Shown: positions 2,551 to 30,957 of the stretch, one piece after another
How the letters are laid out: every line of letters begins with the position of its first letter
Position numbering within the stretch: position 1 is the first letter of the stretch
Assembly: GCF_017301635.1 (NCBI RefSeq)
Contig: NZ_CP071091.1
Location: 3,918,001 to 3,982,000, forward strand
Reading direction: 5' to 3'
DNA: 64,000 nt
Origin: Myxococcus landrumus
Lineage (GTDB): Bacteria; Myxococcota; Myxococcia; Myxococcales; Myxococcaceae
Position numbers and translations under genes: made by a program
Notes under the pieces: model-generated
The model's input: the letters and a program-made list of their open reading frames with translations, nothing else
What the model was told of the DNA's origin: nothing
The model's database searches: none

Positions 2551-2761
2551 GCGCCCCCTGATGCGGTGGCACATGAGCGCCGCACCGACACCTCCCGGCC
2601 CGGAGGTTCGGTCGGCGACCAGGGCGCGCCCACCTGCACTCGGCTTCAATGTGCCTGGTGCCGGTCGCAGCCTCGTACCAGCACAGCTCGCCCTTCTGGA
2701 TGCGCCCTCCACATCCAGCCGCGGTGCAGGTTCCCGCTTTCGCCGCGACGATGATGGGCAT
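2474..2761 (-). CDS. Cys-rich, probably zinc-binding small protein
   Basis: The 95-residue product opens with MPIIVAAKAGTC, then has a CGG-IQKGE-CWY segment of the sort found in treble-clef or PARP-like zinc fingers, followed by further cysteine and histidine pairs (CRW, CRCGAH, CSRC). It probably binds zinc and perhaps DNA. Its start overlaps the stop of the sigma-like gene by one base (TGATG), so it is the last gene of a three-gene minus-strand unit: RusA, sigma-like factor, zinc protein. Small zinc proteins of this type are common near phage recombination genes. The exact function is unknown. Confidence 0.6.
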   Translation of the reverse strand: MPIIVAAKAGTCTAAGCGGRIQKGELCWYEAATGTRHIEAECRWARPGRRPNLRAGRCRCGAHVPPHQGALTVREVSRAGRHRKEWTVGCSRCAE

Positions 2762-3717
2762 CAGTCCCTCGGCAGCAGAGCGAGCTGGTCCGGCTGGAGC
2801 CGCGCGCGGCGAGCGCTGGCGACGCGCGGACGGCGGACCACCCCTCTGCTTGGCGCGTCGTCCTCGCCTGGGCCAAGTCCCTGCGCGTTGAGGTGCTCCC
2901 GGAGCCGCGCAAGGCCGCGCTGGTGGAGTCGTTCCACCTGCGCGAGTGTCAGCCGCAGCTCTACCGCCATGGTTCGCGTCGAGGCGGCTTGGCCTTCTGT
3001 GCGTCCGATACCTGAGAGGCCCTGGACGACCTGCCGCTCAAGCCTCGGCAGCCGATAGAGTGCCCACAGCACGGCATCCCGTTGGGCAACAAGAGCCAGC
3101 CGTTCGACCGTGTTGTCCACGAGAGAGAGTCGCAGCTCAGCGCTAGCGCCTGCGCCCCCGTGCTTCCGGTCAAGGGCGGCGGAACGCCAGTCGGCGCCGA
3201 GGTCCCGAGTGGCGAGCAGCGCATCGAGGGACACAGGCACGCTGACGGAGCCCTCCCCCAGGGCATAGGCCGCCGCGGCATCCATCCCTTGGCGGCGCAG
3301 CACGGACGATACTTCCACGCCCTCGGCAGCGGCGGTGCGCTTCGCCCTCCGCACCGCCTTGCGTGCATGGTCCGTCAGGTGAACGGCGCTCGACCAGCGC
3401 GCCGCGGCGCGCACCATCGCCTGCTCTCCCAGGCGCATTGCCCATGCCGGGAATGCAGAGCGCCCAGCACCCGCGCGCCCCGGCGTGAACGGGCGGGCGC
3501 GCTGCTGCTTCATCACTGCCATGAGCGCCTCCTGCACCAGGTCTGCGACCGGAGCCGCGCGCCACCTGCTCTGGACGGAGCGTGCAACGCGCTCAATGTC
3601 TGGCCGAATCAGCTCAGCGAGTCGGGACTCCGCACGCCGGGCTTCGCTCCCTCCAGCAGGCAAGCCCTGAAGCTTGTGGAGCAGCTCCTCGAGGACAAGT
3701 TCGCGCGCTCCGCTCAT
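2761..3717 (-). CDS. Phage-encoded sigma-70-like transcription factor
   Basis: This 318-residue protein has the outline of a sigma-70 family factor. A region 2-like part covers residues 55-120, with DLVQEALMAV at 59-68 and an aromatic segment (FPAWAMRLGEQAM) like the core-binding and minus-10 reading helices. A region 4-like helix-turn-helix covers 206-276 (LPRLERQVVQGL through LTLAQVERLHQRGLARLREHL). A long insert sits between them. The ATG overlaps the RusA stop (ATGA), so the two are coupled. It would redirect host RNA polymerase, most plausibly to phage genes. Known myxophages and many large phages carry such factors, but this one is divergent and could instead be an anti-sigma-like or packaging-related DNA binder. 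Confidence 0.6.
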   Translation of the reverse strand: MSGARELVLEELLHKLQGLPAGGSEARRAESRLAELIRPDIERVARSVQSRWRAAPVADLVQEALMAVMKQQRARPFTPGRAGAGRSAFPAWAMRLGEQAMVRAAARWSSAVHLTDHARKAVRRAKRTAAAEGVEVSSVLRRQGMDAAAAYALGEGSVSVPVSLDALLATRDLGADWRSAALDRKHGGAGASAELRLSLVDNTVERLALVAQRDAVLWALYRLPRLERQVVQGLSGIGRTEGQAASTRTMAVELRLTLAQVERLHQRGLARLREHLNAQGLGPGEDDAPSRGVVRRPRVASARRARLQPDQLALLPRD

Positions 3718-4906: not shown

Positions 4907-4916
4907 CGCCCCTTCT
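4907..4916 (+). promoter_or_regulatory. CGCCCCTTCT intergenic motif
   Basis: Exact copy of the recurring prophage decamer, just after the stop of the zinc-finger gene and 18 bases before the GTG at 4935. Here a normal GGAGG also precedes the start. Confidence 0.5.
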
Positions 4917-8316: not shown

Positions 8317-8320
8317 GGGA

Positions 8321-8365
8321 TTCTCCTGGAGACTGCGAGTGGGACAGCCCCCACGAGAAGAGGCG
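8321..8365 (-). repeat. Hairpin leader repeat, copy 1
   Basis: Copy of a 45-base element directly before the ribosome binding site of the holin-like gene. Read on the minus strand it has CGCCTCTTCT, then a hairpin (GGGGCTG/CAGTCTCC arms), then GGAGAATCCC and the ATG. Differences from the other copies keep the stem through G-U pairs. Confidence 0.65.
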
Positions 8366-8366
8366 C

Positions 8367-8822: not shown

Positions 8823-8825
8823 GAG

Positions 8826-8870
8826 GTCTCCCGAGGACTGTGAGTGGGACAGCCCCCGGGAGAAGAGGCG
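8826..8870 (-). repeat. Hairpin leader repeat, copy 2
   Basis: Second copy, before the NlpC/P60 gene. On the minus strand CGCCTCTTCT is followed by a stem of GGGGCTGT with ACAGTCCTC (one bulged T, one G-U pair), then GGGAGACC and the ATG at 8822. Confidence 0.65.
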
Positions 8871-8905
8871 GCTCGCGCCGAGACGCACGCGAGCCAGGGC
8901 ACTAC

Positions 8906-9409: not shown

Positions 9410-9412
9410 GAC

Positions 9413-9457
9413 TTCTCCTGGGGACTGTGAGTGGGACAGCCCCCGGGAGAAGAGGCG
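9413..9457 (-). repeat. Hairpin leader repeat, copy 3
   Basis: Third copy, before the gene at 8906-9409. The hairpin occupies 9420-9443 with arms GGGG-A-CTGT and ACAG-CCCC on the plus strand, and its base touches the AGGAGA ribosome binding site. CGCCTCTTCT precedes it on the minus strand. Confidence 0.65.
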
Positions 9458-9460
9458 CCC

Positions 9461-9847: not shown

Positions 9848-9855
9848 GAGCCGAG

Positions 9856-9865
9856 AGAAGGGGCG
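9856..9865 (-). promoter_or_regulatory. CGCCCCTTCT motif, 8 bases before the coiled-coil gene
   Basis: Exact copy on the minus strand. The last T is followed by eight bases and then the ATG at 9847. It faces away from the plus-strand copy at 9879-9888. Confidence 0.6.
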
Positions 9866-9878
9866 AGGGCGAGTGACG

Positions 9879-9888
9879 CACCCCTTCT
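9879..9888 (+). promoter_or_regulatory. CACCCCTTCT motif, 7 bases before the sce7726-like gene
   Basis: One-mismatch copy of the decamer, seven bases before the ATG at 9896. No Shine-Dalgarno sequence is present. Confidence 0.55.
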
Positions 9889-9895
9889 GCTGAAC

Positions 9896-10450
9896 ATGCA
9901 CGATGCAGACGTTCGCCCCGCGCTCCTCACTTACATCCGGACAACGCGCCCTCATGCTCGGGTCATGGAGGAACTGGGACTACGGTCTGGGCGCGTGCGC
10001 GTTGACGTCGCCGCACTGGAGCCGGGAGAGCTCGCCGCCTACGAGCTCAAGGCCGACACGGACAACCTCCGGCGCCTGCCGGGCCAGGTCGCCGAGTACA
10101 GCGCGGTGTTCGACCGCTGCACCGTGGTCACCGGGGGCCGACACCTCCTTCACGCAGCAGCCGCAGTGCCGCGCTGGTGGGGCGTAATGCGGGTGCGCGA
10201 GGCCGCAGGAGCATGGGTGCTGGAGCTGGTGCGGGAGAGCAGGCCCAACCCAAGTCCGTGCGCCGCGTCCGCCCTGGAGCTGGTGTGGCGCGCTGAGATG
10301 TTGGCGCTGCTGGAGTCGCGCAGTGCGGCGAGAGGGATGCGGACTTCCACACGGGAGCGGCTACGCGCACGCATCCTTGAGCTGCTCACTCCCGAGGAGG
10401 TCCGCGCCTACGTGCGGCAGGTGCTCGTCAGTCGCACGGACTGGCGGTAG
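9896..10450 (+). CDS. sce7726 family protein, PD-(D/E)XK nuclease-like
   Basis: The 184-residue product matches the pattern I know for sce7726 proteins: an N-terminal helix (DVRPALLTYIR), EELGLRSGRVRVDVAAL with the conserved aspartate, then AAYELKADTDNLRRLPGQVAEYSAVFDRCTVV, quoted here in overlapping part. The D...ExK arrangement with a following helix is that of restriction-endonuclease-fold enzymes. The family is common in phages and genomic islands and its job is not established; DNA cleavage or repair is likely. The start follows the decamer motif by seven bases. It is divergent from the lysis-like unit. Confidence 0.7.
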   Translation: MHDADVRPALLTYIRTTRPHARVMEELGLRSGRVRVDVAALEPGELAAYELKADTDNLRRLPGQVAEYSAVFDRCTVVTGGRHLLHAAAAVPRWWGVMRVREAAGAWVLELVRESRPNPSPCAASALELVWRAEMLALLESRSAARGMRTSTRERLRARILELLTPEEVRAYVRQVLVSRTDWR

Positions 10451-10529
10451 CGCCGGCCAACCAGCGTGCCGAGCGGACGCGTCCCGCATGTGCTCCGTGG
10501 GGGAATTTCAGTGCGGCTGAATGTAGGTG

Positions 10530-10561
10530 CACCTCCCCGGGGGTGGGAAACCGGGGAGGTG
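10530..10561. terminator. Strong hairpin between early/lysis and packaging genes
   Basis: A perfect 11-pair stem (CACCTCCCCGG at 10530-10540 with CCGGGGAGGTG at 10551-10561) and a ten-base loop follows the sce7726-like gene by about 80 bases. There is no T-run on either side, so it may be a Rho-assisted stop or a regulatory structure. The 10451-10771 gap holds nothing else I recognise apart from the decamer at 10754. Confidence 0.45.
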
Positions 10562-10753
10562 GGCCTAAAACCTGATTGCTCGGCGCCCTGCAATCCTGGC
10601 GCGTGGATTCCCCCGAGATTTCCCGGCGAAACCGTTAGGCGACCCCCTGTTTTTCTGGAGCCCTCGCGTTCCTAGCGGCCTGCTGGTGGGCAGTTCGTGT
10701 CCCGGCAGCGTTGCCCCAGCCTTCTGTCTCTGCGTTGCCTGATGGGCCACCAG

Positions 10754-10763
10754 CGCCCCTTCT
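10754..10763 (+). promoter_or_regulatory. CGCCCCTTCT motif, 8 bases before the gene at 10772
   Basis: Exact copy, eight bases before the ATG. It helps choose this start over a GTG at 10697. Confidence 0.55.
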
Positions 10764-10771
10764 GGCCGGGC

Positions 10772-11722
10772 ATGACCAAGCCAGCCCTCCAGCATCTCGC
10801 CCACCACCTCCGCGGATACACCGACTTCAAATGCCTCGCCCATGATGATGGCAACGAGCTCCTCCTCTTCGGCCAGGGGCAGCGCCAGGGCCGCACGGGG
10901 CGCATCCCCAAGCTACAGGCGCAGCACGCGATGGAAGATGGGGGCGAGGCGGCGCTTCTCGCCGTGGCCCGCGAAGCCCTCGGCATCACCGAGCCGATGA
11001 CAGGTGCCGAGGTGCGGGTGCTCTGTGCCAACCTCGCGTGGACGAGGGCGCAGGCGCAGGCGGGGCTCAACGAGAGTGCGGCGCTGGAGCTGCGCCTGTT
11101 GGCCCGCGAGCTCGGCGCGATTCAGCTTTGTGCCCGCGGGGAGGCATCGCCCGCAGACTGCCCTGCCCCATCCACCGCCCCCCCGCCCACGGAGGGTGAG
11201 TCCGTGCTTTCGGTCCACATCGGGGAAAAGCACTTCGCCGTCACGTGCCCGCCGACGGAGGCACTGGTGAAGCTGGGCGAGCTCGTCGAGGCAGCCTCCT
11301 CGAACGAGCGCAATGCCCCCAGCACTGCGACGCCCGCGAACGGTGCCGGTGTGGCCACGCCGGCCGAGGGCGCCGCACCGAGCCCTGCCTTCGGCGTCGC
11401 TCGCACTCCCGACTCTCCGCTCTGCACGTGCAAGTCCGCCCGGCCCCACAGCCTCGACTTCGTCGCGCATGTCGATACGACCGATGCACGGGAGGAGCTG
11501 GAGCAGCTCGATAGGCGTGCGGCTGCGGTAGCGGAGCGGCTCCGCGCCGCCCACTCCCCGGTCACCATCTCGGAGATGTCGGGTGCCATCAACTCCGCCA
11601 GTAGCTTCATCGGCGTCATCACCGCGGCGGGAAGCCGTGTGTCCACGGAGACCATCGGCAGGGCTGTCCAGTCCGCGCTCGCCTTGGTGGAGCGGGCCGA
11701 GCAACTGGCGCGCGGGGCGTAG
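10772..11722 (+). CDS. Hypothetical phage protein upstream of terminase
   Basis: The product has 316 residues from ATG 10772 (a GTG at 10697 would add 25). It has an N-terminal globular part (ALQHLAHHLRGY, GNELLLFGQG), an alanine-rich helical part, a short conserved-looking strand segment (SVLSVHIGEKHFAVTCP), a low-complexity linker, and a C-terminal coiled coil (REELEQLDRRAAAVAERLRA). It precedes the terminase small subunit by 21 bases. It may serve packaging or regulation, but no family is recognised. Confidence 0.6.
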   Translation: MTKPALQHLAHHLRGYTDFKCLAHDDGNELLLFGQGQRQGRTGRIPKLQAQHAMEDGGEAALLAVAREALGITEPMTGAEVRVLCANLAWTRAQAQAGLNESAALELRLLARELGAIQLCARGEASPADCPAPSTAPPPTEGESVLSVHIGEKHFAVTCPPTEALVKLGELVEAASSNERNAPSTATPANGAGVATPAEGAAPSPAFGVARTPDSPLCTCKSARPHSLDFVAHVDTTDAREELEQLDRRAAAVAERLRAAHSPVTISEMSGAINSASSFIGVITAAGSRVSTETIGRAVQSALALVERAEQLARGA

Positions 11723-11726
11723 TCGG

Positions 11727-11736
11727 CGCCCCTTCT
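11727..11736 (+). promoter_or_regulatory. CGCCCCTTCT motif, 7 bases before the small terminase gene
   Basis: Exact copy, four bases after the previous stop codon and seven before the GTG at 11744. Confidence 0.55.
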
Positions 11737-11743
11737 TCCGGAC

Positions 11744-12370
11744 GTGGCCCGTCACCGCGACCATGACCTGGAAACAGAGCCTGCCGAGGTGCTGGGCCTG
11801 GACCCGCTCGCGACGTACCGGCCCCTCAAGCAGCGGGGGCCGGCAACGACGCTGACCGAGCCCCTGGGCCTCGCGCTCTGCCGCCACATCGCAGCCGGCC
11901 GCTTCTTGAGGGACGCGGCTGTGCTCGCTGGGTCGAGTGACTCCGTCGTGCAGGGGTGGCTGCGCCGCGGGCGTGAGGACATCGAGGCCGGGGAGCAGAC
12001 GCTCTACACGTGGTTCGTCATGGAGTACGAGGCCGCCTCCGCGCACTTCCGCCGCGCGCTTGAGGAGGTCGTCCTCGCCAACATCGGCAACCGCGCGCTG
12101 CTGGAGAAGTTCATCCGGTGGCGCCTCAGCATTTCGGACCCCAAGCACTACACGCTCCCGAGAGTGAGCGCGGCGCCCGTCGCGGGCAACGGCCTCGGGC
12201 CCCTGTTCGAGCTCGTCACCCCAGAGCAAGCGCGCTCGAAGCTCGACGAGAAACTGGAGCGGTTCCTCGAGGAGCTCGCGAAGGACTTGCCTGCCAAGGC
12301 CGCTCCGGACTCAAGCGCAGCCGCGGGCACGCCCTCGAACACGGACGACGAGGACGAGGATGGTGGCTAG
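11744..12370 (+). CDS. Terminase small subunit
   Basis: The small terminase recognises phage DNA and loads the large subunit. This 208-residue product has an N-terminal helix-turn-helix (GLALCRHIAAGRFLRDAAVLAG, SDSVVQGWLRRG), a central helical hairpin (FVMEYEAASAHFRRALEEVV) for oligomerisation and an acidic tail (TDDEDEDGG). Identity rests on this layout and on its position: it overlaps the large subunit start by eleven bases. The GTG start has no Shine-Dalgarno sequence but follows the decamer by seven bases. Confidence 0.8.
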   Translation: MARHRDHDLETEPAEVLGLDPLATYRPLKQRGPATTLTEPLGLALCRHIAAGRFLRDAAVLAGSSDSVVQGWLRRGREDIEAGEQTLYTWFVMEYEAASAHFRRALEEVVLANIGNRALLEKFIRWRLSISDPKHYTLPRVSAAPVAGNGLGPLFELVTPEQARSKLDEKLERFLEELAKDLPAKAAPDSSAAAGTPSNTDDEDEDGG

Positions 12371-13880
12371 CGCAGCAGTTCTGGAGGCAGGGGAGGACCT
12401 GCTCGCCGGCATCCCCGTCATCACCTCGGAGACGCACGGCCGGTTCTCTCGGTTGCAGCGCGTCGCCCTCCGTGCTCGCGCGAAGGTTGGCACCGCCGTT
12501 GGGTTCGCCGACCTCGTGGGACTGACGCCGCAGGAGCTCGTTGCCCTCTACTACGAGCCCATCTATTCGCTGCGCCCAGTGCAGGTGCCGCCGCTGCACT
12601 ACCGGACGTTCTTCTTTCTGGGAGGCCGCGGAGCGGGAAAGACGTTCGCCGGAGCGAGCGCGGTCATCGAGGAGGCGCGTGCAGACCCTGAGGCGCGAAT
12701 CCTCATCGTCGGGCCGACGTATTCTGAGATTGTGAAGAACCAGCTCGAAGGAACGAGCGGAATCATCACGCTCAGTCCCCCGTGGTTCGCGCCGAAATAT
12801 GAGAAGGCCAAGCGCCGCCTCGTCTGGCCCAACGGTGCGCAGGCCACGTGGTTGCCCGCCAAGAATGCGGACAAGTTCAGGGGTCACCAGTACACGATGA
12901 TTTGGGCTGACGAGCCTGTGGCGTGGAAGGGCGACGCCATCGCCGTCTACAAGGAATGCCGCGCCGTCAACCGGCTGCGCACTTCGCGGATGCGCCGCGA
13001 GGGGTTGTCGGCGCGCATGTTCATCACGACCACGCCGGCCCCTACGGCGCTCTTTCGCGAGATGCTGGGGGACCGCGACGGCCTGGTGCTCGCGCGCTCC
13101 TCGACGATGGAGAACACCGACAACCTCGACCCCGCCTACGTCCGGTATGCGCGGCGGGTGATGAACTCGACCGAGGGGAGACGGGAGTTCTTGGGTGAGC
13201 TGACGTTCGCCATGGACCCGGCCATCTACCGGAAGGTCAATTGGACCAAGACCCGCGTCGCCCCGAAGAAGCGCCCCAGCTCCTTCGACTTTGTTGTGGT
13301 GAGCATCGACCCCGCGACAGGAGAAAAGAAGACCTCGGACTTGCACGGCATCGTCGTCGTCGGAGTTAGACGCGAGGCAGACGGGATGGACCACGTCTAT
13401 GTACTGGCGGACCTGTCGCTCCAGTCGCCCGAGCCGTCAGCATGGGCAAAGAGGGCGGTCGAGGCGCTACGGCACTGGGAGCCCTATGCAGCGAAGGACA
13501 GCCGTGGCAGAGCCAGGGCTTGGATATTTGCTGAAACCAACACAGGGGGAAACATGGTGCGTTCAACCATCCGCACCATTGCCAAGGTCAAGGTGCGGAC
13601 AGAGCGAGCCATGCAGTCGAAGGCCGAACGCGCGTCTCCGGTGTCGTCCTACGCCGAATCAGGCCTCGTCCACATGGTGGGCACACACGACAAGCTGGAG
13701 GCTCAACTCGCGAAGTTCACCGGCGCCGAGGGTGGGCACGGCCGCGACGACCGCGCTGACGCCTTCGCGTGGCCCATCTGGAAGTACGTCATTCCGAAAA
13801 GGGCAAACCTGGGGGCGGCCGAGCGTGACGTGAAGGACGTCACAGCCGGCGCTTCACCCGCGGAAGATGACGACGAGTAA
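12360..13880 (+). CDS. Terminase large subunit
   Basis: This is the ATP-driven DNA packaging motor and headful or cos nuclease. The 506-residue product has Walker A GGRGAGKT at 88-95, Walker B ending in WADE at 182-185, a coupling motif (FITTTPAP, 221-228), and a C-terminal RNase H-like nuclease with D317 (VVVSIDPATG), E392 and D467 (DDRADAFAW). The length is normal for the family. The ATG overlaps the small subunit, giving coupled translation. All catalytic residues are present, so packaging should work. Confidence 0.95.
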   Translation: MVASAAVLEAGEDLLAGIPVITSETHGRFSRLQRVALRARAKVGTAVGFADLVGLTPQELVALYYEPIYSLRPVQVPPLHYRTFFFLGGRGAGKTFAGASAVIEEARADPEARILIVGPTYSEIVKNQLEGTSGIITLSPPWFAPKYEKAKRRLVWPNGAQATWLPAKNADKFRGHQYTMIWADEPVAWKGDAIAVYKECRAVNRLRTSRMRREGLSARMFITTTPAPTALFREMLGDRDGLVLARSSTMENTDNLDPAYVRYARRVMNSTEGRREFLGELTFAMDPAIYRKVNWTKTRVAPKKRPSSFDFVVVSIDPATGEKKTSDLHGIVVVGVRREADGMDHVYVLADLSLQSPEPSAWAKRAVEALRHWEPYAAKDSRGRARAWIFAETNTGGNMVRSTIRTIAKVKVRTERAMQSKAERASPVSSYAESGLVHMVGTHDKLEAQLAKFTGAEGGHGRDDRADAFAWPIWKYVIPKRANLGAAERDVKDVTAGASPAEDDDE

Positions 13881-13929
13881 GGCGCCAGCCTCAAGAGGGC
13901 CGCATGCAAGGAGGGGACGTTGACGCCAC

Positions 13930-13939
13930 CACCCCTTTT
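13930..13939 (+). promoter_or_regulatory. CACCCCTTTT motif, 8 bases before the portal gene
   Basis: Variant copy with two mismatches, eight bases before the ATG at 13948. Confidence 0.45.
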
Positions 13940-13947
13940 CGTAGGGC

Positions 13948-15306
13948 ATGGCATCCCTCGTCCGCCGCGCCTTCCAAGCCCTCGGGCTACTCCCAGTCCA
14001 TCAGGGCCCCATCGTCCGCATTCTCCCGGTCCCGAGTTTCAGCCCACGGCGGGGTAGCCGGGAGGTGCTACTCGCGTACCGTGAGATTGCCTGGCTGCGC
14101 ACCGTGGTTGACACCGTGGCCGAGGCCACCGCAACCCCAACGTGGAAGGTCTACAAGCGCACCCGGCCGAACGGACTGAGCCGGGATGACAGGCGCCTGA
14201 AGTCGAGCGACAAGGCAGTGCGTACCAAGGCGATGAAGGAAGCAGCGGAGGCTGGAGATCTCGTAGATCTTCCGGACCATGAGCTGCTTCGGCTGCTGGA
14301 AGCGCCGCACCCACGCTACCCGGGCCGCGCATACTTGAAGCTCGGCCAGGTCCACGTTGATCTCGTGGGAGAGGTCTTCCTCTGGCTACAGCGTTCGGAC
14401 GATGGACGCGTGGCTGGCTGGGTCATCGTCCCTCCCAGTCGCATCATGATGACCCCCACGCCCGGCAATCCCTTCTTCTTCATCAACTACAATCTATTCA
14501 GTGGCACGGTGCCAGAGGCGGATGTTCTCTGGTTCAAGCACCTCGACCCCGAGAATCCGGAGGACCGCGGCTCCGGCGCTGGCATGTCTCTGGGTGACGA
14601 GCTCGACACCACAGAGGCAATCTCCCGAGCGACCAAGGCCACCTTCGAGCGAGGGGGCGTTCCATCAGCCATCGTGGGTGTGGACAGCAAGGGCGGTGCC
14701 GCAGATGAATTGGACGACGCCGTGGACGACTTGCGGAAGGAATTCGAGTCCCAGTTCTCTGGACCGGAGAACGCCGGGCGGATGTGGTTCACGCGCGGAA
14801 CCGCAAGCATCGCTGAGGTGCGGGTGTCCTTCCGGGAGCTCCAGACGGAGGAGCTCAAGAAGGGCCTGCTCGACTACATCCGACAAACCTACAACGTGCC
14901 ACCGGAGCTCGTGGGAGACCTCTCGTCTAGCAACCGCTCCACAGCCGAGGACGCGAAGTACACCCTGGCCGACTTCGCCGTGCTGCCGCGCCTGGAGTTC
15001 TGGCGCACGTGGCTGCAGCACTGCCTCGTGCCGCTCGTCGACCGGGACGCAATCCTCGACTACGAGGACCCGCGCCCGCAGCACTGGGAGCGCGTCTTCC
15101 GCCTCATGACGACGCCACCAACCCAGGCGTTCACATGGAACGAGGTGCGTGTCCTGGCCGGGTATCAGCCAGACCCGGCGCTCGCTGGTCGGCGCCCGTT
15201 GCCGCTACCGGGACAAGGCGGGGGCGGCATCAACCCCGAGAGCGCCGCTGCGAACGCAACTCCCTCCCCACCGCGAGACAGGAGCGGCGAGGAGGGCCGC
15301 ATCTAA
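13948..15306 (+). CDS. Portal protein (HK97-like)
   Basis: The portal is the twelve-fold ring through which DNA enters and leaves the head. The 452-residue product shows the HK97 portal pattern: an N-terminal region with IAWLRTVVDTVAEATA, GQVHVDLVGEVFLWLQ, the GVPSAIV strand, a long stem helix ending in LLDYIRQTYNVPPELVGDLSSSNRSTAEDA (quoted in part), then ADFAVLPRLEFW. The C-terminus is a disordered proline and glycine tail. It lies between terminase and protease as in HK97-type modules. Confidence 0.93.
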   Translation: MASLVRRAFQALGLLPVHQGPIVRILPVPSFSPRRGSREVLLAYREIAWLRTVVDTVAEATATPTWKVYKRTRPNGLSRDDRRLKSSDKAVRTKAMKEAAEAGDLVDLPDHELLRLLEAPHPRYPGRAYLKLGQVHVDLVGEVFLWLQRSDDGRVAGWVIVPPSRIMMTPTPGNPFFFINYNLFSGTVPEADVLWFKHLDPENPEDRGSGAGMSLGDELDTTEAISRATKATFERGGVPSAIVGVDSKGGAADELDDAVDDLRKEFESQFSGPENAGRMWFTRGTASIAEVRVSFRELQTEELKKGLLDYIRQTYNVPPELVGDLSSSNRSTAEDAKYTLADFAVLPRLEFWRTWLQHCLVPLVDRDAILDYEDPRPQHWERVFRLMTTPPTQAFTWNEVRVLAGYQPDPALAGRRPLPLPGQGGGGINPESAAANATPSPPRDRSGEEGRI

Positions 15307-15315
15307 GCGGTCCGC

Positions 15316-15325
15316 CGCCCCTTCT
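15316..15325 (+). promoter_or_regulatory. CGCCCCTTCT motif, 8 bases before the protease gene
   Basis: Exact copy, nine bases after the portal stop. With the following GGGGC it can form a short hairpin just before the ATG at 15334. Confidence 0.55.
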
Positions 15326-15333
15326 GTCGGGGC

Positions 15334-16023
15334 ATGGCGACGATGCGATTCAAGCGGATGACAGCAGCCTCTCCGTCCACCGCCGGAGAGCTGCCTGTCT
15401 TCCAGGCGTGCGACACCGAAGTCGACCGCGACGGCGACCGAATGCTCCCCGGTGCGCTGAAGCTGGAGGAGTTCGCAGGCAATCCCATCCTCTACTGGGA
15501 CCACGGGCACAAGCACGGCCGCCTTCCGGTTGGCACCTGCCGAGTCTGGGAAGAGGGCGGGCTGCACTTCATGGAGCCGCGCATCTCGGACGCCACGCAA
15601 GAGTCGCGAGACGTGAAGGCGCTGGTGGCCGACGGGACCATCCGCGCCTGCAGCATTGGGTACCTGACGCGGAGAGCTCGGCCCAATGCAACTGGTGGAG
15701 AGGATGTCCTCGACGCAGAGCTGGTCGAGGTGTCCCTCACTGGCATTCCCGCCAAACCCAAAGCCCTGAGAGTGAAGAGCATGACGCCCGAGGAGATGGC
15801 GAAGTCCTGGAAGCAGCTCGTCGAGGACATGGCCGAGACGAAGACGCTGGTGAAGGCGCTGCACGCGAAGGCGATTCCGCCCGAGGCGGAGGCAGACACC
15901 GACGAGCCCGCGGAGGAGCCCACCCCGACTGAGGGGAAGTCCACTGAGGACGAGCTCGAGGAGGCGCCGGACGGCGAGGAAGCCACGGTGGCGAAGTTCT
16001 TCCGGAGCTTCACCACCAAGTAG
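15334..16023 (+). CDS. Prohead protease with scaffold-like tail
   Basis: Family U35-type serine protease that matures the capsid. The 229-residue product has PILYWDHGHK (His57 or His59) and RACSIGY (Ser107), the expected catalytic pair, in a strand-rich domain of about 155 residues. The remaining tail is helical and very acidic (EAEADTDEPAEEPTPTEG), likely acting as the internal scaffold that is digested on maturation, since no separate scaffold gene is present. Confidence 0.9.
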   Translation: MATMRFKRMTAASPSTAGELPVFQACDTEVDRDGDRMLPGALKLEEFAGNPILYWDHGHKHGRLPVGTCRVWEEGGLHFMEPRISDATQESRDVKALVADGTIRACSIGYLTRRARPNATGGEDVLDAELVEVSLTGIPAKPKALRVKSMTPEEMAKSWKQLVEDMAETKTLVKALHAKAIPPEAEADTDEPAEEPTPTEGKSTEDELEEAPDGEEATVAKFFRSFTTK

Positions 16024-16029
16024 CGCGCC

Positions 16030-16039
16030 CGCCCCTTCT
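16030..16039 (+). promoter_or_regulatory. CGCCCCTTCT motif in the capsid leader
   Basis: Exact copy seven bases after the protease stop. The capsid ATG is 50 bases further on and has its own GGAG, so the motif here is not start-adjacent. Confidence 0.5.
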
Positions 16040-16089
16040 ACCCGCCTGAGCGCGCCATCGCGTCGCATCCACACCAGCCTGGAGTTGTC

Positions 16090-17277
16090 ATGCCCCAGAA
16101 CAACCCGAAGAAGACTGCCCCGCCGACCGTGCCTCCCGAGGTGGAGAACGCGCTCGCGCCCATCATCATCAAGCACGTCGAGGCCTCGCTCGCCGCGCGC
16201 CAGCCCGCCCCCATGGAGCCGGGCAAAGCCCCCGCCGTGCTCAAGTACAAGGGGATGTTCGACACCGAGCGGCCCGCCCATGCCGCGCTCGGCCTGCGCA
16301 TGAAGATGGCGTTCCTCGACTTCGAGGACCGCACCGCGCGCGAGAAGTCGAAGACGCGCAATGCGCCGCTGCGCGAGTTCATCGACAAGATGAAGTCGGC
16401 CGGTGTCTTCGAGTCCGTCTTCGGCCAGGGCGGAAGTCTCTGGGCGGTAGAGACACGCAGCGAGGAAGTCATCGATGTCCTGCGCCCGGCCTCCATCCTG
16501 CTGTCTGCCGGATGCCGCGTGGAGAGCGGCTACGGCAGCAAGCTCATCATCGGTGTGCTCAACGAGGGGGTGTCGGTGGCCTGGGAGGGCGAAGACGAGG
16601 AGGCCAGCGAGAGCGACTTGGACACGGGTGACCTCGTCCTCGGTGCCCACAAGGCGATGGCCACCATCCGCATCGCCAACGACCTGATGCGCAAGGGCAC
16701 GCTGCGCAGCGCCGAGCAGATTGCCCTCGACGTCGGCCGGGCCATGGGCGTCGCCTTCGACCAGGTGGGCCTGTATGGCAAGGGGCCGAAGAAGCCGACG
16801 GGCATCCTCAACACCGACGGCATCACCAAGAAGCCCATCAGCGGCACCAGCAATGACCAGAAGGTGGCCGACTTCAAGGGCATGGTCGCCGACGTCATGG
16901 GGGCGAACATCCCGCTCCAGGGGGCGAACCCGTTCTACTTCATGACGAGCGGCACGATGATGCACCTGAGCAGCCTCCGTGATGCGGCCGGCTCGGGGAA
17001 TGGCGGCTGGGTGTTCCCGGGACTCCAGGACCTGACGAACCCGACCATCAACGGGTTCCCGGTGAAGCACACCGAGTCCCTGGTCGGGAAGAAGGTCGTC
17101 GGATTCGGGCTGGCCCAGGAGCTGTACTTCGGCAACGCGGCGCCGCTGGAAATCGAACTCGGCGAGAACGGCAGCGACTTCAAGCGGGACCGAAAGACGG
17201 TGCGCGGCGTGCAGGAAGGCGACTGGCAGGTGCGCCGCGCCAAGGCGTTCTCCGTCCGCACGGGCGTCGAGTACTGA
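16090..17277 (+). CDS. Major capsid protein (HK97 fold)
   Basis: The 395-residue protein builds the icosahedral head. The first 100 or so residues are helical and charged and would be removed by the protease (delta domain). The rest shows the HK97 pattern: a long spine helix region (SAEQIALDVGRAMGVAFDQ, ending GKGPKKPTGILN), FYFMTSGTMMHLSSLRD, and the C-terminal strand block (ELGENGSDFKRDRKTVRGVQ). It starts after a longer leader with a GGAG site, consistent with high expression. Confidence 0.93.
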   Translation: MPQNNPKKTAPPTVPPEVENALAPIIIKHVEASLAARQPAPMEPGKAPAVLKYKGMFDTERPAHAALGLRMKMAFLDFEDRTAREKSKTRNAPLREFIDKMKSAGVFESVFGQGGSLWAVETRSEEVIDVLRPASILLSAGCRVESGYGSKLIIGVLNEGVSVAWEGEDEEASESDLDTGDLVLGAHKAMATIRIANDLMRKGTLRSAEQIALDVGRAMGVAFDQVGLYGKGPKKPTGILNTDGITKKPISGTSNDQKVADFKGMVADVMGANIPLQGANPFYFMTSGTMMHLSSLRDAAGSGNGGWVFPGLQDLTNPTINGFPVKHTESLVGKKVVGFGLAQELYFGNAAPLEIELGENGSDFKRDRKTVRGVQEGDWQVRRAKAFSVRTGVEY

Positions 17278-17353
17278 GCCACGCATTGGTGGACCGGGCG
17301 GGTCGTTCGGCCAGTCCGGTCCACTCCCCTCTCATTCTGCAACTGGAGAATCC

Positions 17354-17785
17354 ATGCATCCCTCTCTCAGCAACATCGGCGCCTACATCAAGGCGGGCGT
17401 CCTCGCGCTGGAACCTGCCGCGCGGGGCGCGGGTACCACGCAGGGGCCTGCCGTCGACATCACCCGGTTCAAGAGCCTCGTCCTGTCCGTTGTCGTTGGT
17501 GCATCCAGCGGCGCCCCGGCCGGAGTGAGTGCCGCGTTCAGCTTCGAGTCCCGCGTGCCCGACGGTGCGTGGGCGGCAGTGAAGGACAGGGATGGCAGCC
17601 CCATCACCGTGGCGGCCACCGCGGTCAGCGGTGCCGTCGAGTTGGACCTCGACCTCTCCATGGTGGGCGACGACCACGAGGAGCTGCGCGTGGTGCAGGT
17701 GCTGTCCTTCACCGGAGGGACGGCGCCGACGCTCCTGACAGGGGCCTCGCTCGTGTTGGGCGGCGCCGCTCGCCTGCCGGTCTGA
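17354..17785 (+). CDS. Hypothetical head protein, possible decoration protein
   Basis: The 143-residue product starts at an ATG with GGAG seven bases upstream. It is almost all beta (FKSLVLSVVVGAS, FSFESRVPDGAWAAVKD, VELDLDLSMVG) with a glycine-rich end, like small capsid decoration or head fibre proteins. It lies directly between capsid and neck genes. No family is recognised. Confidence 0.65.
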   Translation: MHPSLSNIGAYIKAGVLALEPAARGAGTTQGPAVDITRFKSLVLSVVVGASSGAPAGVSAAFSFESRVPDGAWAAVKDRDGSPITVAATAVSGAVELDLDLSMVGDDHEELRVVQVLSFTGGTAPTLLTGASLVLGGAARLPV

Positions 17786-17794
17786 GGTGACGCC

Positions 17795-18439
17795 ATGGCC
17801 TCGCCCGTCGACCTGCTGTTGCCCGAGCAGCTCCCCGTGTCTGCGCGCATGATGGACGCTGCGCGGCTCGGGCTCATCATCACCGCCGCGAGCGAGGCCG
17901 TGGCAACCTACTGCGGCTATCCCCTCCACCAACGGCTCGACGTCGTGGAGTCCGTTGCAGGACGCGGTGGTGCGTACCTCTGGCTGCGCGGCGCGGCCGT
18001 TCGACAGGTGACGCGCGTGGAGGTGCGCGGCGTTCCGCGGGCCGCAGGCACGTACGCGCTGGAGTCTTCGGGGCGTGGCCGCATCGTCGCCCGGGGAGAG
18101 GATTGGCCATTCACCGGCACATGGACGAAGGGCGTGTCCTCGACGCCGCTGAACCCCCAGGACACCGGAGAAGTCGTGGTGACGTATGACTCGGGCTGGG
18201 TGACCCCGGGGCAACGTGCTCTGGATGCGGCGCTGGTGGTGGACCTGCCAGCGTCTATCCAGCTTGCCGCCGTCGAGGTCGTGGTGGCCGCGGTGTCTCG
18301 TGACGGCAAGCCGGGCGACGCTGCCAGCGAGTCCATCGGCGACACCAGCATGAGCTACTTCGCCGGCGAGGACGGAGGCCGGACGGCACTGCCGTCCACC
18401 GCGCGCCAGCTCCTGGCCGCATACCGGAGACGGCGATGA
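17795..18439 (+). CDS. Head-tail adaptor protein (gp6-like)
   Basis: The 214-residue product begins with helices of the adaptor type (ARMMDAARLGLIITAASEAVATYCG) and has a strand-rich insertion (WLRGAAVRQVTRVEVRGV, GEVVVTYDSGW) before a C-terminal helical part ending in an arginine run. This is the pattern of HK97 gp6/SPP1 gp15-like proteins that dock under the portal. Its stop overlaps the next start (ATGA), so the neck genes are coupled. Confidence 0.75.
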   Translation: MASPVDLLLPEQLPVSARMMDAARLGLIITAASEAVATYCGYPLHQRLDVVESVAGRGGAYLWLRGAAVRQVTRVEVRGVPRAAGTYALESSGRGRIVARGEDWPFTGTWTKGVSSTPLNPQDTGEVVVTYDSGWVTPGQRALDAALVVDLPASIQLAAVEVVVAAVSRDGKPGDAASESIGDTSMSYFAGEDGGRTALPSTARQLLAAYRRRR

Positions 18440-18759
18440 CGCTGCTCGGGCATACGTTCCGCCACACCTTTCACCTGGCCAAGCACGTCTCCACCAACGC
18501 TGGAGGCGAGAGCGAGTACGCAGCCCCAGAGCCACACTCGTGCCGGTACCAGGGGGCGACGAAGCGCATTGTCGCCTCAGATGGGAGCGAGCGCGTAACC
18601 GAGGCCGTCCTCTACACCGCCGTGGAAGTTCACCCCCAGGACTACGTGTACCCGCCCGGTGCCGACCTGGACGACTACGGCGCCGGGCGATGCCCGCTGC
18701 GCGTCACGCCGCGCAACAATCTCGCCGGCGAGCTGGACCACTACGAGGTGTACCTGTGA
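18436..18759 (+). CDS. Head closure or neck protein
   Basis: The 107-residue, mostly beta product (HTFRHTFHLAKHV, TEAVLYTAVEVHPQDYVYPPG) starts in an ATGA overlap with the adaptor gene and ends in a GTGA overlap with the next. Size, fold and position fit a head-closure protein of the gp16 type, the valve below the adaptor ring. The assignment rests on order more than sequence. Confidence 0.6.
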   Translation: MTLLGHTFRHTFHLAKHVSTNAGGESEYAAPEPHSCRYQGATKRIVASDGSERVTEAVLYTAVEVHPQDYVYPPGADLDDYGAGRCPLRVTPRNNLAGELDHYEVYL

Positions 18760-19160
18760 CGCCACGGCACGTAGAGCGCGAGCTGGCCCTGCACCTGGAG
18801 TCCTCCGGCCTGGGGCTGTCCACCACGAGCACGGCGTCGAGCCTGTACTGGGGCGGACTCCCCACGAAGTCGCCAGACCGGGCCGTCCTCGTCCGCGACA
18901 CTGGGGGCGAGCAGTCCTTGTACTTGGGCACCGGGCGTGGGCTCCTCGCCGCTGACGCCCAGGTAGTGGTGCGTGGCGTGCCCAACCGTGTCGAGGAGGC
19001 GCGCGAGCTAGCGGTGGCGTGCTGGCGGGCGCTGCACCTTGCGCGCATCCCGGGGTTCGTCGGCGTGAAGTGCGAGGGCGCGGGCCCCATCGCCCAACCG
19101 CCCGACGGCAGCGGTAGACCTCGCCTCTCATTCAACGTCATCGCCAGCTTCGTCGCGTAG
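18756..19160 (+). CDS. Tail terminator or minor capsid protein
   Basis: The 134-residue product uses GTG overlapping the previous stop. It has a helix, then GLLAADAQVVVRGVPNRVEEARELAVACWRAL (quoted in part), and ends in strands (RPRLSFNVIASFVA). This alpha-beta arrangement, with a central conserved V-R-G-V-P-N turn, is typical of small phage terminator proteins that cap the tail tube and join it to the head. Confidence 0.65.
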   Translation: MTPRHVERELALHLESSGLGLSTTSTASSLYWGGLPTKSPDRAVLVRDTGGEQSLYLGTGRGLLAADAQVVVRGVPNRVEEARELAVACWRALHLARIPGFVGVKCEGAGPIAQPPDGSGRPRLSFNVIASFVA

Positions 19161-19164
19161 TCGC

Positions 19165-19174
19165 CGCCCCTTCT
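19165..19174 (+). promoter_or_regulatory. CGCCCCTTCT motif, 7 bases before the gene at 19182
   Basis: Exact copy, four bases after the terminator stop and seven before the next ATG. Confidence 0.55.
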
Positions 19175-19181
19175 TTGCGGC

Positions 19182-19622
19182 ATGCCGGTCAAGGTCAAGG
19201 TCGACGTCTTCGCGTTGCACAGGCTCCAGCAGAACCCGGTGCCAGTGCTGCGCGCGCTCGACATGCCGTGCCGCGACACCGTCCGCACGGCCATTACCTA
19301 CAGCCAGTTCCTCGTCCCCCGGCAAGAGCCTTGGGAGCGGTACACGGACGCGAGCAAGGATGTCGAGGACGCGCTTGCGGACACGGCCTTCATCTCAGGG
19401 CCCGAGTTCAATCTCTCGCGCCACCTCTCGACAACGTGGACCGCTGGCTACGAGCACGAGCGCGCCGGCGCCATCCACGAGGGCTTCCACTACGGGCCCC
19501 AGATCTTCAAACCGCCGCCGCACTTCCTGCGCAAGTCGTTCCGGCGAGCGCGAAGCGTCGCACGCAAGGGTGTGGCCCGCGTCATCAAGACCTATCTCGC
19601 GAAGACCTTCCCCTCTCGCTGA
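19182..19622 (+). CDS. Neck or tail-completion protein (gp10-like)
   Basis: The 146-residue basic product has an N-terminal helix, aromatic-rich middle (YSQFLVPRQEPWERYTD) and arginine-rich helical end (FRRARSVARKGVARVIKTYL). Its place between terminator and tube genes, and its basic nature, fit the HK97 gp10-like family of neck proteins. No purine ribosome binding site precedes the ATG, only the decamer. Confidence 0.6.
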   Translation: MPVKVKVDVFALHRLQQNPVPVLRALDMPCRDTVRTAITYSQFLVPRQEPWERYTDASKDVEDALADTAFISGPEFNLSRHLSTTWTAGYEHERAGAIHEGFHYGPQIFKPPPHFLRKSFRRARSVARKGVARVIKTYLAKTFPSR

Positions 19623-19645
19623 TGCACCCACGAAGGAGCAACACC

Positions 19646-20074
19646 ATGGCCGAACCGACCCCCGCGTATGTCCAATCCATCCACCTCGTTTCCGCCGCAG
19701 CCACTGCACCCGCAGAGGCCAACCGGCTCGATGGAATCAGCGAGGCGCCCGTGAACATGACCTCCGACACTGTCGACGGGAACTACCTGGGCAGTGACGG
19801 GTGGAAGCGGACGCACACGACGCTGAAGGGCTTCGAGATTCCCCTCTCGGGACACCACCTCCCGACGACCGTTTCGCACCAGCTCCTCAAGACGATGTAC
19901 CTCACCCATGCCGTTGGTTACTTGCTCATCGTGAAGGACATCTCCGGTGCGCCTGGTGCTGTCGGCACCCGCTATCCGGTGAAGGCGACCTCGTTCGAGG
20001 AGGGCCGCAGCGCCACGGACGTCCTCACGTTCAGCACGACCCTCACCAGCCAGGGCGCTCCCGTCGACTTCTGA
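19646..20074 (+). CDS. Major tail tube protein
   Basis: The 142-residue product starts at an ATG with AAGGAG seven bases upstream. Its strand pattern (VQSIHLVSAAA, GWKRTHTTLKGFEIPLSG, LLIVKDISG, DVLTFSTTLTSQG) fits the single-domain tube proteins of non-contractile phages, which stack as hexameric rings. It directly precedes the tail chaperone pair, as expected. Confidence 0.75.
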   Translation: MAEPTPAYVQSIHLVSAAATAPAEANRLDGISEAPVNMTSDTVDGNYLGSDGWKRTHTTLKGFEIPLSGHHLPTTVSHQLLKTMYLTHAVGYLLIVKDISGAPGAVGTRYPVKATSFEEGRSATDVLTFSTTLTSQGAPVDF

Positions 20075-20082
20075 CCTGACGT

Positions 20083-20092
20083 CGCCCCTTCT
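20083..20092 (+). promoter_or_regulatory. CGCCCCTTCT motif before the tail chaperone
   Basis: Exact copy eight bases after the tube stop and 32 bases before the chaperone ATG, which has its own GGAGAG. Confidence 0.5.
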
Positions 20093-20124
20093 CACCCTCG
20101 CAACCCAAGGAACGTGGAGAGTCC

Positions 20125-29284: not shown

Positions 29285-29578
29285 ATGACGGAAGTGGAGT
29301 TGGAGGCCATCCGAAGAATCATCCGCGAGGAGCTGTCGGCCGCGGGCGCCGTCGGTGACCTTTTGACACTCGCACAAGCAGCCGCGCTGGTGAGCGTGAG
29401 CGAGGCGACCATCAAGCGATGGCTCCGCGACGGCGTGCTCGTGCGACATGGAGAAGGGCGCACGGTGCGCATCTCCAAGCGCCAGCTCCTAGAGGTGATG
29501 GCGAGGCAGGAGTCCTCGCCCGTCTCGAATGCGGAGTTGGAGCGGATGGCCGATGCGGCGCTCGGGAGGGCGGTCTGA
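29285..29578 (+). CDS. Excisionase-like helix-turn-helix protein
   Basis: The 97-residue product starts at an ATG preceded by GGGGAAG. Residues 22-75 form a MerR/excisionase-type winged helix (LLTLAQAAALVSVSEATIKRWL, then a wing and VRISKRQLLEVM). It likely binds DNA near the attachment site and steers the integrase toward excision, or controls its expression. The stop overlaps the integrase ATG (TGATG), so the two are coupled. Confidence 0.8.
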   Translation: MTEVELEAIRRIIREELSAAGAVGDLLTLAQAAALVSVSEATIKRWLRDGVLVRHGEGRTVRISKRQLLEVMARQESSPVSNAELERMADAALGRAV

Positions 29579-30957
29579 TGGGAGAGGTCTACCAGCGCAC
29601 CGACTCACCGTTCCTCTGGGTCTGGTTCTACGACGGCAAGGGAGTCCGACGATTCAAGTCCTCCAAGAGCAAGGACGAGAAGGTTGCTCGCAAGTTCCTG
29701 GAGAAAATCGAGCGCAAAGTTCAGGAGGAAGAGCAGCAGCGCAAAGCCGAAGCGGAGAGTGGCCTGGTCGACGCCGTGACGGGCACCGTCACCGTGGGCC
29801 GCTACGCCGAGCGGTGGATTGCAGAGCGGCGTGAGCGCGGTGTCGGTTCGGCGCACGACGACGAGAAGCGACTCCAGCACGCCCTTCCCCTTTTGCGGGA
29901 CATGCCCCTCTCAGAGGTCCGCCCGCGGCACATCCTGAAGGTCATCCGGACGATGCAAGCCAAGAAGGACGAGAACGGGCGCCCGAAGTACGCCCCTCGT
30001 ACCGTGCTTCACGTCTACGGAGTCCTCCGAGTCATGTTCGGCGATGCCCTGCGCGAGGAGCTCATCACCGAGACGCCCTGCGTGCTCAAGACGAAGCGGA
30101 AGGAGCTGCCCAAGAAGCGGGACAAGAATCCGGCATGGCGCAGCAAGGCGGTCTACACAGCGGCCGAGGTCGTCACGCTGCTGACCGCCGCGGAGATTCC
30201 CGAGCGGCGCCGCGTCATCTACGCCGCCGAATTGCTCAGTGGGGTCCGCATCAACGAGCTGACCCCACGGCGCCTGCGTGACTGGGAGACTGACTGCCAG
30301 CCGCTCACCAAGCTCATGGTGGCGACGCGCTACGTCGTGAAGACGAAGTCGGAGGAACCTGCGACGAAGACGGGTGTGGTGCGCGAGGTGCCGGTACACC
30401 CCATGCTCGCGAAGATCCTGCAGGCATGGCTGTCCGAGGGATGGGAGCGAGAGTACGGCCGCCCTCCAGGACCGGACGACTTCATCGTTCCAGCCGTGCG
30501 CGGCGGCTTCATGAGCTCGTCGTCGGAGTACAAACGACTCCAGGAAGACCTCGAAGCGCTTGGCCTGCGTCGCCGCAGGCAGCACGACATGCGGCGCACG
30601 TTCATCACCCTCGCGCGCGCCTGCGGTGCCGACAAGTCCCTGCTCCGCTGGGTGACCCACGGCCCACCCGAGGCGGCTGACGACATCATGGACGTCTACA
30701 CGAGTCCGCCATGGGCGACGCTCTGCGAGCAAGTCGCCCTACTGACCCTCCCCTTCCCCGAGGGGTTCCCCCCTCGGGGGAGCGCAGAAGCCGTTACGCC
30801 ACTGTTACGCTCAGGAGAATCACGAATGATGCTGACTACTTACAGCTTGGAGGCGGCGGGAATCGAACCCGCGTCCGAAAGCCTTCCGTCCTTCGACCCT
30901 ACGTGCGTAGTCCGCGCTTTGCTACGTCCCCAAGACTCCCACGGACGGGATTCCTAG
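29578..30957 (+). CDS. Tyrosine recombinase (phage integrase)
   Basis: Catalyses site-specific insertion into ssrA. The 459-residue product has a SAM-like core-binding domain (about 70-160) and a catalytic domain with R224 (SGVRINEL), K264, H336 and R339 (HDMRR), H361 and the nucleophile Y374 (MDVYTS). The body should end near residue 400. The frame instead continues, and from about residue 424 to the stop it is encoded by the strand opposite tmRNA, giving a tail starting EAAGIEP. In the circular phage this tail must differ, so the attachment site lies inside the gene. The M. xanthus phage Mx8 is known for the same design. Confidence 0.93.
   Translation: MGEVYQRTDSPFLWVWFYDGKGVRRFKSSKSKDEKVARKFLEKIERKVQEEEQQRKAEAESGLVDAVTGTVTVGRYAERWIAERRERGVGSAHDDEKRLQHALPLLRDMPLSEVRPRHILKVIRTMQAKKDENGRPKYAPRTVLHVYGVLRVMFGDALREELITETPCVLKTKRKELPKKRDKNPAWRSKAVYTAAEVVTLLTAAEIPERRRVIYAAELLSGVRINELTPRRLRDWETDCQPLTKLMVATRYVVKTKSEEPATKTGVVREVPVHPMLAKILQAWLSEGWEREYGRPPGPDDFIVPAVRGGFMSSSSEYKRLQEDLEALGLRRRRQHDMRRTFITLARACGADKSLLRWVTHGPPEAADDIMDVYTSPPWATLCEQVALLTLPFPEGFPPRGSAEAVTPLLRSGESRMMLTTYSLEAAGIEPASESLPSFDPTCVVRALLRPQDSHGRDS
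30848..30875. other. Attachment site region at the ssrA 3' end
   Basis: The phage-host junction must lie within or next to the T-arm and acceptor stem of tmRNA, the usual target of tyrosine integrases. The exact core length cannot be set without the left end. To the left of 30848 the sequence is phage. Confidence 0.7.

Follow-up and report, generated by a model that had tools for sequence, protein, structure and literature searches.

A GC-rich decamer before start codons in a family of myxobacterial prophages as a probable single-block promoter

Introduction

Why do many genes of a Myxococcus landrumus prophage carry the same decamer, CGCCCCTTCT, immediately before their start codons, at the place of the Shine-Dalgarno (SD) sequence? 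The question concerns a stretch of 64,000 nucleotides (contig NZ_CP071091.1, positions 3,918,001 to 3,982,000 of the forward strand), hereafter called the window, part of which belongs to the prophage. An earlier note on this DNA had offered two readings: the motif might be a pyrimidine-rich element of translation initiation that replaces the SD sequence, or a promoter element of a phage sigma-like factor that produces leaderless mRNA. The analysis presented here disfavours the former and strongly supports the latter, through a split between putative leaderless and leadered genes, the presence in this prophage of a gene for a sigma-70-like protein, and the known geometry of phage sigma promoters. 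The motif is probably a single-block promoter, read by a sigma-like phage protein of 318 amino acids (aa), that would yield leaderless or leadered RNA according to its distance from the start codon.

Copies of the motif in the window and in the host genome

Eight exact copies of CGCCCCTTCT are found in the window, every one of them within positions 4907-20092; the impression, previously gained by eye, that the chromosomal half lacks exact copies was correct, as none lies beyond 20092. With one mismatch allowed, the window contains 19 matches, compared with 7.7 expected (standard deviation 2.6), and none of 100 shuffled sequences reached 19. Two classes of sites can be distinguished. In class A the motif is adjacent to the gene and ends 7 or 8 nt before the start codon; in class B it is distant, and the intervening leader contains an SD site (Table 1). 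All seven adjacent starts listed in the earlier note hold, those at 9896 and 13948 by way of variants, and the three distant exact copies that it mentioned do precede starts with GGAGG or GGAG. Class B includes in addition three minus-strand sites with the one-mismatch variant CGCCTCTTCT, which precede starts having GGAG-type sites. Genes that bear the motif encode terminase, portal, protease, major head protein, tail proteins and, in a minus-strand cassette, an endolysin-like protein; the product of the gene starting at 20125 weakly matches a family of tail assembly chaperones. In the cassette (8317-9447, minus strand), the leaders of 38-39 nt that follow CGCCTCTTCT are nearly identical in the three genes and form a repeated 5' untranslated region of this lysis-like group.

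The motif is a feature of the prophage, and the host does not appear to use it. A count over the 10.37 Mb of the genome, which the earlier note had suggested as a check, gave 62 exact copies, compared with 113 for the reversed motif; eight of the 62 fall in the 15-kb stretch described above. The motif followed by 7-8 nt and RTG occurs eight times in the whole genome (control, 6), and five of these occurrences are in the prophage. Outside the prophage, 3 of 54 copies have this form, which matches the 6% rate of random positions.

Conservation of the motif in related prophages

A terminase search in 145 genomes of the order yielded 31 loci at 56-100% identity in 23 genomes (the own locus included) and a second terminase group at about 40% identity. 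The relatives considered below are 31 loci (L061-L091), 30 of which came from this search and one, L061, from a viral collection. L102, a duplicate of L062, was excluded, and terminase fragments of 84-102 aa (56-63% identity) in G095, G104 and G071 were not counted as loci; the first of these genomes had no sigma match. Exact copies of the motif are present in all 31 relatives, and their conservation over loci whose terminases are 56-90% identical rules out a chance motif. The group at about 40% identity had no exact copy in the nine loci fetched (L092-L100). Among these nine, L094 and L095 (at 3894376 and 5330700) are further prophage-like loci of the own genome, with terminases 40-41% identical.

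When the relatives were analyzed together with the window, the pattern proved more pronounced than the earlier note had stated: a spacing of 7 or 8 nt to ATG or GTG is found for 137 of 189 exact copies, compared with 6.0% of random positions. Copies less than 60 nt from the start of a locus or less than 80 nt from its end were dropped from this count. Among the other 52 copies, 48 are found upstream of an SD site and a start within 70 nt (random positions, 19%). The remaining four are individual cases: in L064 an ATG follows after 6 nt, in L073 the copy is followed by another copy of the motif, and two lie in L091, where one precedes a start that has no GGAG-type core and the other has no evident start. 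Dereplication retained 108 of the 137 adjacent copies and 42 of the 52 others, and 38 of the latter, those with SD, were used for tests of distance and of sequence steps. The distance to the start in these 38 is 18 nt once and 30-51 nt otherwise; none falls at 9-17 nt.

The state of the motif, adjacent or distant, follows the gene family. Adjacent motifs were detected in 29 of 31 members of the small terminase family, 28 of 32 portal genes (the four misses include the window site, as the gene caller placed the start at 14065), 26 of 28 protease genes, 22 of 23 members of the 19182 family and 13 of 16 members of the 9461 family, to which the window site at 9856..9865 belongs. In the major head protein family, a non-adjacent motif within 90 nt was found in 16 of 26 genes, all 16 with an SD site. 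Non-adjacent motifs were also found in the 7795 family (8/8), the lysin family (11/16) and the 20125 family (9/23). The layout of the site at 4907, which comprises the motif, 18 nt with GGAGG, a GTG codon and a related small open reading frame (ORF), is kept in prophages G106 and G107. Gene starts were taken from a codon-score caller written for this analysis, and P-values are only indicative since the sequences are related.

A position weight matrix was built for the five adjacent families; the limit of three mismatches admitted 119 of their 130 members. The consensus block is CRSCCCTTCT, with positions 1, 4, 6, 7 and 8 invariant in the 119 members. In class A sites the block is followed by four variable spacer bases and then by GG(G)C before the start. 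A variant, CGGCCCTTCT, is present at several genes at once in L066, L067 and the viral contig G157, and may reflect a shift of specificity within one phage.

A probable promoter rather than a translation element

SD cores were detected at 18 of 175 adjacent starts, a low rate that is partly forced because the motif fills the SD place, and at 69 of 73 non-adjacent starts, a high rate that is not forced; among motif-less starts the figure is 189 of 373. The motif itself contains no SD core. An SD substitute would be expected at a fixed distance from the start, and 52 of the 189 exact copies lie away from 7 or 8 nt. Pairing with 16S ribosomal RNA, evaluated with the molecule of G104 since the search of the own genome had yielded none, reached at best 9 of 10 positions with G-U pairs counted; of 200 shuffled motifs, 164 reached 9 and 11 reached 10.

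Of the 38 non-adjacent copies, 31 have a pyrimidine-purine step, the usual context of an RNA start, at 7 or 8 nt. No other of the 25 offsets gave more than 27, and none of 20000 rotations reached the observed value. Two divergent gene pairs are also informative. In the window, the starts at 9847 and 9896 are 48 bp apart with both motifs between them; in L083, the divergent starts of predicted ORFs are 35 bp apart, again with both motifs between, one with a mismatch. Neither pair leaves room for other promoters outside coding sequence. Upstream of the motif no second conserved block was seen, as positions -45 to -1 carry at most 0.18 bits in the 108 adjacent copies and at most 0.40 bits in the 42 others. 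A -35 partner element was considered and rejected, as none is conserved upstream.

The split into leaderless and leadered genes, the pyrimidine-purine steps and the close divergent pairs together argue for a promoter rather than a translation element. On the present reading, SD sequences would be missing at adjacent starts for the reason that transcription sets in at the start codon itself; the motif would not take the part of the SD sequence on the ribosome.

A sigma-70-like protein encoded by the prophage

The gene of the 318-aa protein was overlooked by the gene caller and was located through a family of sigma-like proteins (249-313 aa) found among the prophage regions from twelve loci. A profile of seven family members, searched against the sequences of the PDB, matched RpoS (E 5.6e-9, profile positions 71-268). 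Pfam searches with the window protein alone found Sigma70_r2 only (E 3.2e-4; 20.9 bits, under the curated cut-off of 24), and the relative in G056 matched both region 2 (E 6e-7) and region 4 (E 2.2e-5) over the cut-off. These sequence comparisons relate the family to sigma regions 2 and 4. Residues D59, L60, Q62 and E63 are invariant in the family alignment. Primary sigma factors have an aromatic pair in region 2.3; this pair was not seen in the alignment, and its absence would fit a target other than TATAAT.

A structural model was predicted with a mean predicted local distance difference test score (pLDDT) of 70 and a predicted template modelling score (pTM) of 0.42; residues 1-110 are well predicted, and residues 157-206 and 283-318 are not. 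Superposition of residues 2-109 of the model on domain 2 of several sigma factors takes in 88-97 residues, with deviations of 2.1-2.5 Å and Z scores of 10.4-10.8, which for a helical protein are not decisive by themselves. In each of the two fold searches all 50 listed rows were sigma-factor or RNA-polymerase entries. As modelled, this segment has the fold of sigma domain 2.

The distribution of the sigma gene parallels that of the prophage. Sigma relatives were found in 22 of the 145 genomes: 21 of the 23 that harbor this prophage type, and one of the 122 others, G117, where the relative is a broken fragment only. Copy numbers per genome of the sigma gene and of the prophage type agree except in G057 and G061, and in 21 cases the sigma gene and the terminase locus are on one contig, within 20 kb of each other. 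When 2.9 million viral contigs were searched with both forms of the pattern CGCCCCTTCT-N4-GG(G)C-ATG, 37 contigs matched, and the 14 contigs found independently by the sigma profile were all among them. Eight of the remaining 23 also encode a sigma relative, which raises the total to 22 of 37; with at least two pattern matches, the proportion is 21 of 24 contigs. In one viral motif comparison the contigs had been picked for carrying the motif, and its control of 0 is not independent. The link between sigma gene and motif is correlative: co-occurrence alone does not single out the sigma gene, and its identity does.

A second, different family of sigma-like proteins (149-234 aa) was observed in prophages G056, G069, G106 and G107 (L179, L173/L081, L176 and L178, respectively). 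In G056, G106 and G107 its gene directly adjoins the main sigma gene.

Prophage boundaries and neighboring genes

The prophage appears to extend from a repeat of 26 nt to the transfer-messenger RNA (tmRNA) gene of the host: the last 26 nt of that gene are duplicated about 4.1 kb to the left of the window (L101 15875-15900). Just to the left of the repeat ends another gene, of 387 aa (window position -4142), which might encode an integrase and belong to a tandem element inserted at this tmRNA gene. The prophage also encodes a C-5 cytosine methylase and an N6/N4 DNA methylase (L101 18394-19959, plus strand; window 6720-7532, minus strand). A protein with an SMI1/KNR4 (SUKH) domain is encoded at 6218-6694 (plus strand); members of this family are often immunity proteins. 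Megablast of window positions 9000-24000 against named phages gave no match. A search with the terminase found 120 records, all below 60% identity, the 20 listed being 28-34% identical.

Table 1. Motif sites and associated features of the prophage (window coordinates; class A, motif adjacent; class B, motif distant with an SD-bearing leader)
Feature	Position	Strand	Context
Exact copies of CGCCCCTTCT	4907, 9856, 10754, 11727, 15316, 16030, 19165, 20083	+, -, +, +, +, +, +, +	
Class A, CGCCCCTTCT	9856..9865	-	8 nt before ATG 9847; predicted RNA start 9847
Class A, variant CACCCCTTCT	9879..9888	+	7 nt before ATG 9896; divergent partner of the site at 9856..9865
Class A	10754..10763	+	8 nt before ATG 10772
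Class A	11727..11736	+	7 nt before GTG 11744, small terminase
Class A, variant CACCCCTTTT (two mismatches)	13930..13939	+	8 nt before ATG 13948, portal
Class A	15316..15325	+	8 nt before ATG 15334, head maturation protease
Class A	19165..19174	+	7 nt before ATG 19182, gene of no assigned function between connector and tail genes
Class B	4907..4916	+	18 nt before GTG 4935, GGAGG between; predicted RNA start ~4924
Small ORF downstream of the 4907 motif	4935-5153	+	72 aa, GTG start
Class B	16030..16039	+	50 nt before ATG 16090, major head protein; GGAG; predicted RNA start ~16048
Class B	20083..20092	+	32 nt before ATG 20125; GGAG; predicted RNA start ~20100
Class B, variant CGCCTCTTCT	8356..8365	-	39 nt before ATG 8316; gene 7795-8316, minus strand
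Class B, variant CGCCTCTTCT	8861..8870	-	38 nt before ATG 8822; NlpC/P60 endolysin-like gene 8367-8822, minus strand
Class B, variant CGCCTCTTCT	9448..9457	-	38 nt before ATG 9409; gene 8906-9409, minus strand
Divergent sigma-70-family protein	2761..3717	-	318 aa; GGAGG of its own; start lacks a motif copy; proposed motif reader
Integrase	29578..30957	+	Right end of the prophage; overlaps the 3' end of the tmRNA gene
Host tmRNA gene	30848..31210	-	3' end is the likely insertion site

Discussion

The observations made above can be accommodated in a single model. CRSCCCTTCT, mostly in the form CGCCCCTTCT, would serve a family of myxobacterial temperate phages as a promoter element that consists of one block. 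Host RNA polymerase equipped with the divergent sigma-70-like protein of the phage would recognize it, and transcription would start 7-8 nt downstream of the block. In the small terminase, portal, protease, 19182 and 9461 families, where the block ends 7-8 nt before the start codon, the predicted product is a leaderless mRNA that begins with AUG or GUG and has no SD sequence. In genes such as those for the major head protein, the lysin and some tail proteins, where the block lies 18-51 nt upstream, the RNA would have a leader of about 10-44 nt with a normal GGAG. The promoter may act late in the phage cycle. A more speculative extension, which we regard as somewhat doubtful, is that the GC-rich block and its distance to the start set both the timing and the dose of late genes. 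Head and packaging genes, needed in few copies, might be expressed from leaderless mRNAs, and the same promoter might provide the major head protein and lysis genes with an SD-bearing leader; the leaderless set might also escape host control of normal initiation.

Several observations weigh against this model. Some concern the sigma protein: G057, whose terminase gene is interrupted by a stop, and G061, which is assembled in fragments, carry the motif and no sigma relative, and the same is true of three viral contigs with at least two motif patterns. The large terminase is encoded by 21 of the 22 viral contigs that have a sigma relative, so that any core gene would co-occur with the motif. The sigma model has the overall scores given above (pLDDT 70, pTM 0.42), and fold matches with Z of about 10-12 fall in a range where helical proteins can match by arrangement alone. 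The protein has a region-4-like helix-turn-helix, yet no matching -35 element was seen. Others concern translation. The absence of SD at adjacent starts is in part imposed by the position of the motif, and an SD-like core is found in the spacer of 7 of 29 adjacent small terminase starts. Starts that lack the motif are also without an SD core in 184 of 373 cases, and 155 of these are not near an upstream gene; part of them are wrong start calls by the gene caller. Lastly, the G-rich spacer of class A sites could pair with the C-run of the motif, which makes a hairpin possible.

The alternative that comes closest keeps the promoter and the leaderless transcripts and assigns the reading of the block to a phage activator, an unrecognized phage RNA polymerase or a second sigma-like protein. 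Three observations would suit another reader: co-occurrence fails to separate the sigma gene from other core genes, 4 of 12 longer prophage regions also encode a member of the second sigma-like family, and conserved blocks upstream of the motif are lacking. However, the sigma-70 relative, detected in 8 of the 12 regions by clustering and also in the window and in G083 by tblastn, was the only widely shared transcription-initiation protein noticed in a scan that covered part of the early proteins, and we consider another reader unlikely. A search for T7-type RNA polymerase found none in 21 contigs, although the control genomes were silent too. Less probable still is the translation element, whose partner might be ribosomal protein S1, a different region of 16S rRNA or a phage factor. 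The motif sits exactly at the SD place of genes that mostly lack SD, as such an element should; it is, however, also conserved 18-51 nt upstream of SD-bearing genes, its complementarity to 16S rRNA is no better than that of shuffled motifs, and on this explanation separate promoters would not fit between the divergent starts, which are 35 and 48 bp apart.

Two further explanations seem very improbable. The motif might be retained in the gaps between genes as a stoperator-like site for a phage repressor or a protein that blocks elongation, or as a site for an enzyme that modifies DNA. Mycobacteriophage L5 has asymmetric repressor sites between its genes, and the motif is asymmetric and has a single orientation relative to genes. 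Moreover, 100 plus-strand adjacent sites have the end of an upstream gene no more than 120 nt away; 87 of them begin 0-12 nt past its stop codon and four overlap the gene. Such a role leaves unexplained the exact spacing of 7 or 8 nt, the missing SD and the empty interval of 8-18 nt. Slightly less credible even than this is an RNA hairpin before the start (GCCCC...GGGGC) recognized by a translational regulator of the phage. Class A spacers do end in GG(G)C, and stems of at least 4 bp can be drawn in 82 of 108 dereplicated adjacent sites, compared with 56 of 108 with shuffled spacers. But the C-run is also present in non-adjacent copies, 20 of 38 of which have stems of 3 bp or less, and sites such as CACCCCTTCTgctgaac and CGCCCCTTCTctcggctc keep the motif without a G-run. 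The G residues of the spacer also fit a promoter discriminator.

If the single-block promoter is real, a whole late regulon of a phage has most of its promoters directly on the start codon, with systematic leaderless expression of virion genes, and this stands in contrast with the other prophage genes of the same genomes, which largely use SD sites. The sigma protein and its motif would form a candidate sigma-promoter pair of unusual GC-rich specificity, apparently unused by the host. Such a pair could help to show how DNA is read by divergent residues of region 2, and could be used for gene expression in high-GC myxobacteria. Leaderless and leadered translation also become comparable with one promoter and natural gene pairs. 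On the practical side, the motif corrects gene starts: the coding-score caller missed several starts that it marks.

A literature search of titles and abstracts found no description of this motif or of myxobacterial phage sigma promoters, and with the decamer as a text word, the matches listed included only unrelated animal work. Known systems do share parts of the design. The late promoters of T4, which depend on gp55, consist of a single AT-rich element resembling a -10 box without a -35, and serve leadered genes with SD. The likeness lies in the expression of late phage genes from one element without a -35; the AT-rich element, the different sigma protein and the leadered SD genes of T4 set it apart. 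The closest geometry in the portions of the literature consulted is that of the promoters of the phiEco32 gp36 sigma factor (tAATGTAtA), where a single element is followed by an RNA start 6-8 bp downstream in middle and late genes (PMC8948821). Both systems have a phage-encoded sigma-like protein and one short conserved block with no second block upstream (PMC8948821). For the motif described here an RNA start at a similar distance is predicted, on the indirect grounds of the start codon or pyrimidine-purine step at 7 or 8 nt. In contrast with phiEco32, as far as the parts of that work consulted show, the motif described here is GC-rich, is reused before many genes and lies mostly 7-8 nt before the start codon, so the mRNA is predicted to be leaderless; in addition, the sigma protein keeps a region-4-like part.

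Leaderless genes and repeated elements at phage starts have been reported elsewhere. In Deinococcus-Thermus, leaderless mRNA that lacks a ribosome binding site (RBS) arises from a -10 motif some 6-7 bp upstream of the ORF, and the motif, TANNNT, is reported in the portions consulted to interact with the RpoD of the host (PMC12340547). Unlike it, CRSCCCTTCT is confined to prophages and unused by the host. Cluster K mycobacteriophages have the start-associated sequence (SAS), a repeated asymmetric sequence at the place of the RBS, kept across gene families, and its layout before many phage starts resembles the one seen here (PMC3203893). According to the portions of that report consulted, however, AGGAG is part of the SAS, which is able to pair with 16S rRNA (PMC3203893), whereas the motif of the myxobacterial prophages has no SD core and is also found far upstream of genes with a separate SD. 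Single-element promoters of phage sigma factors and leaderless genes are each known separately; what appears to be new, within the literature seen in part, where we found no description of it, is a putative late regulon of a phage that would join both.

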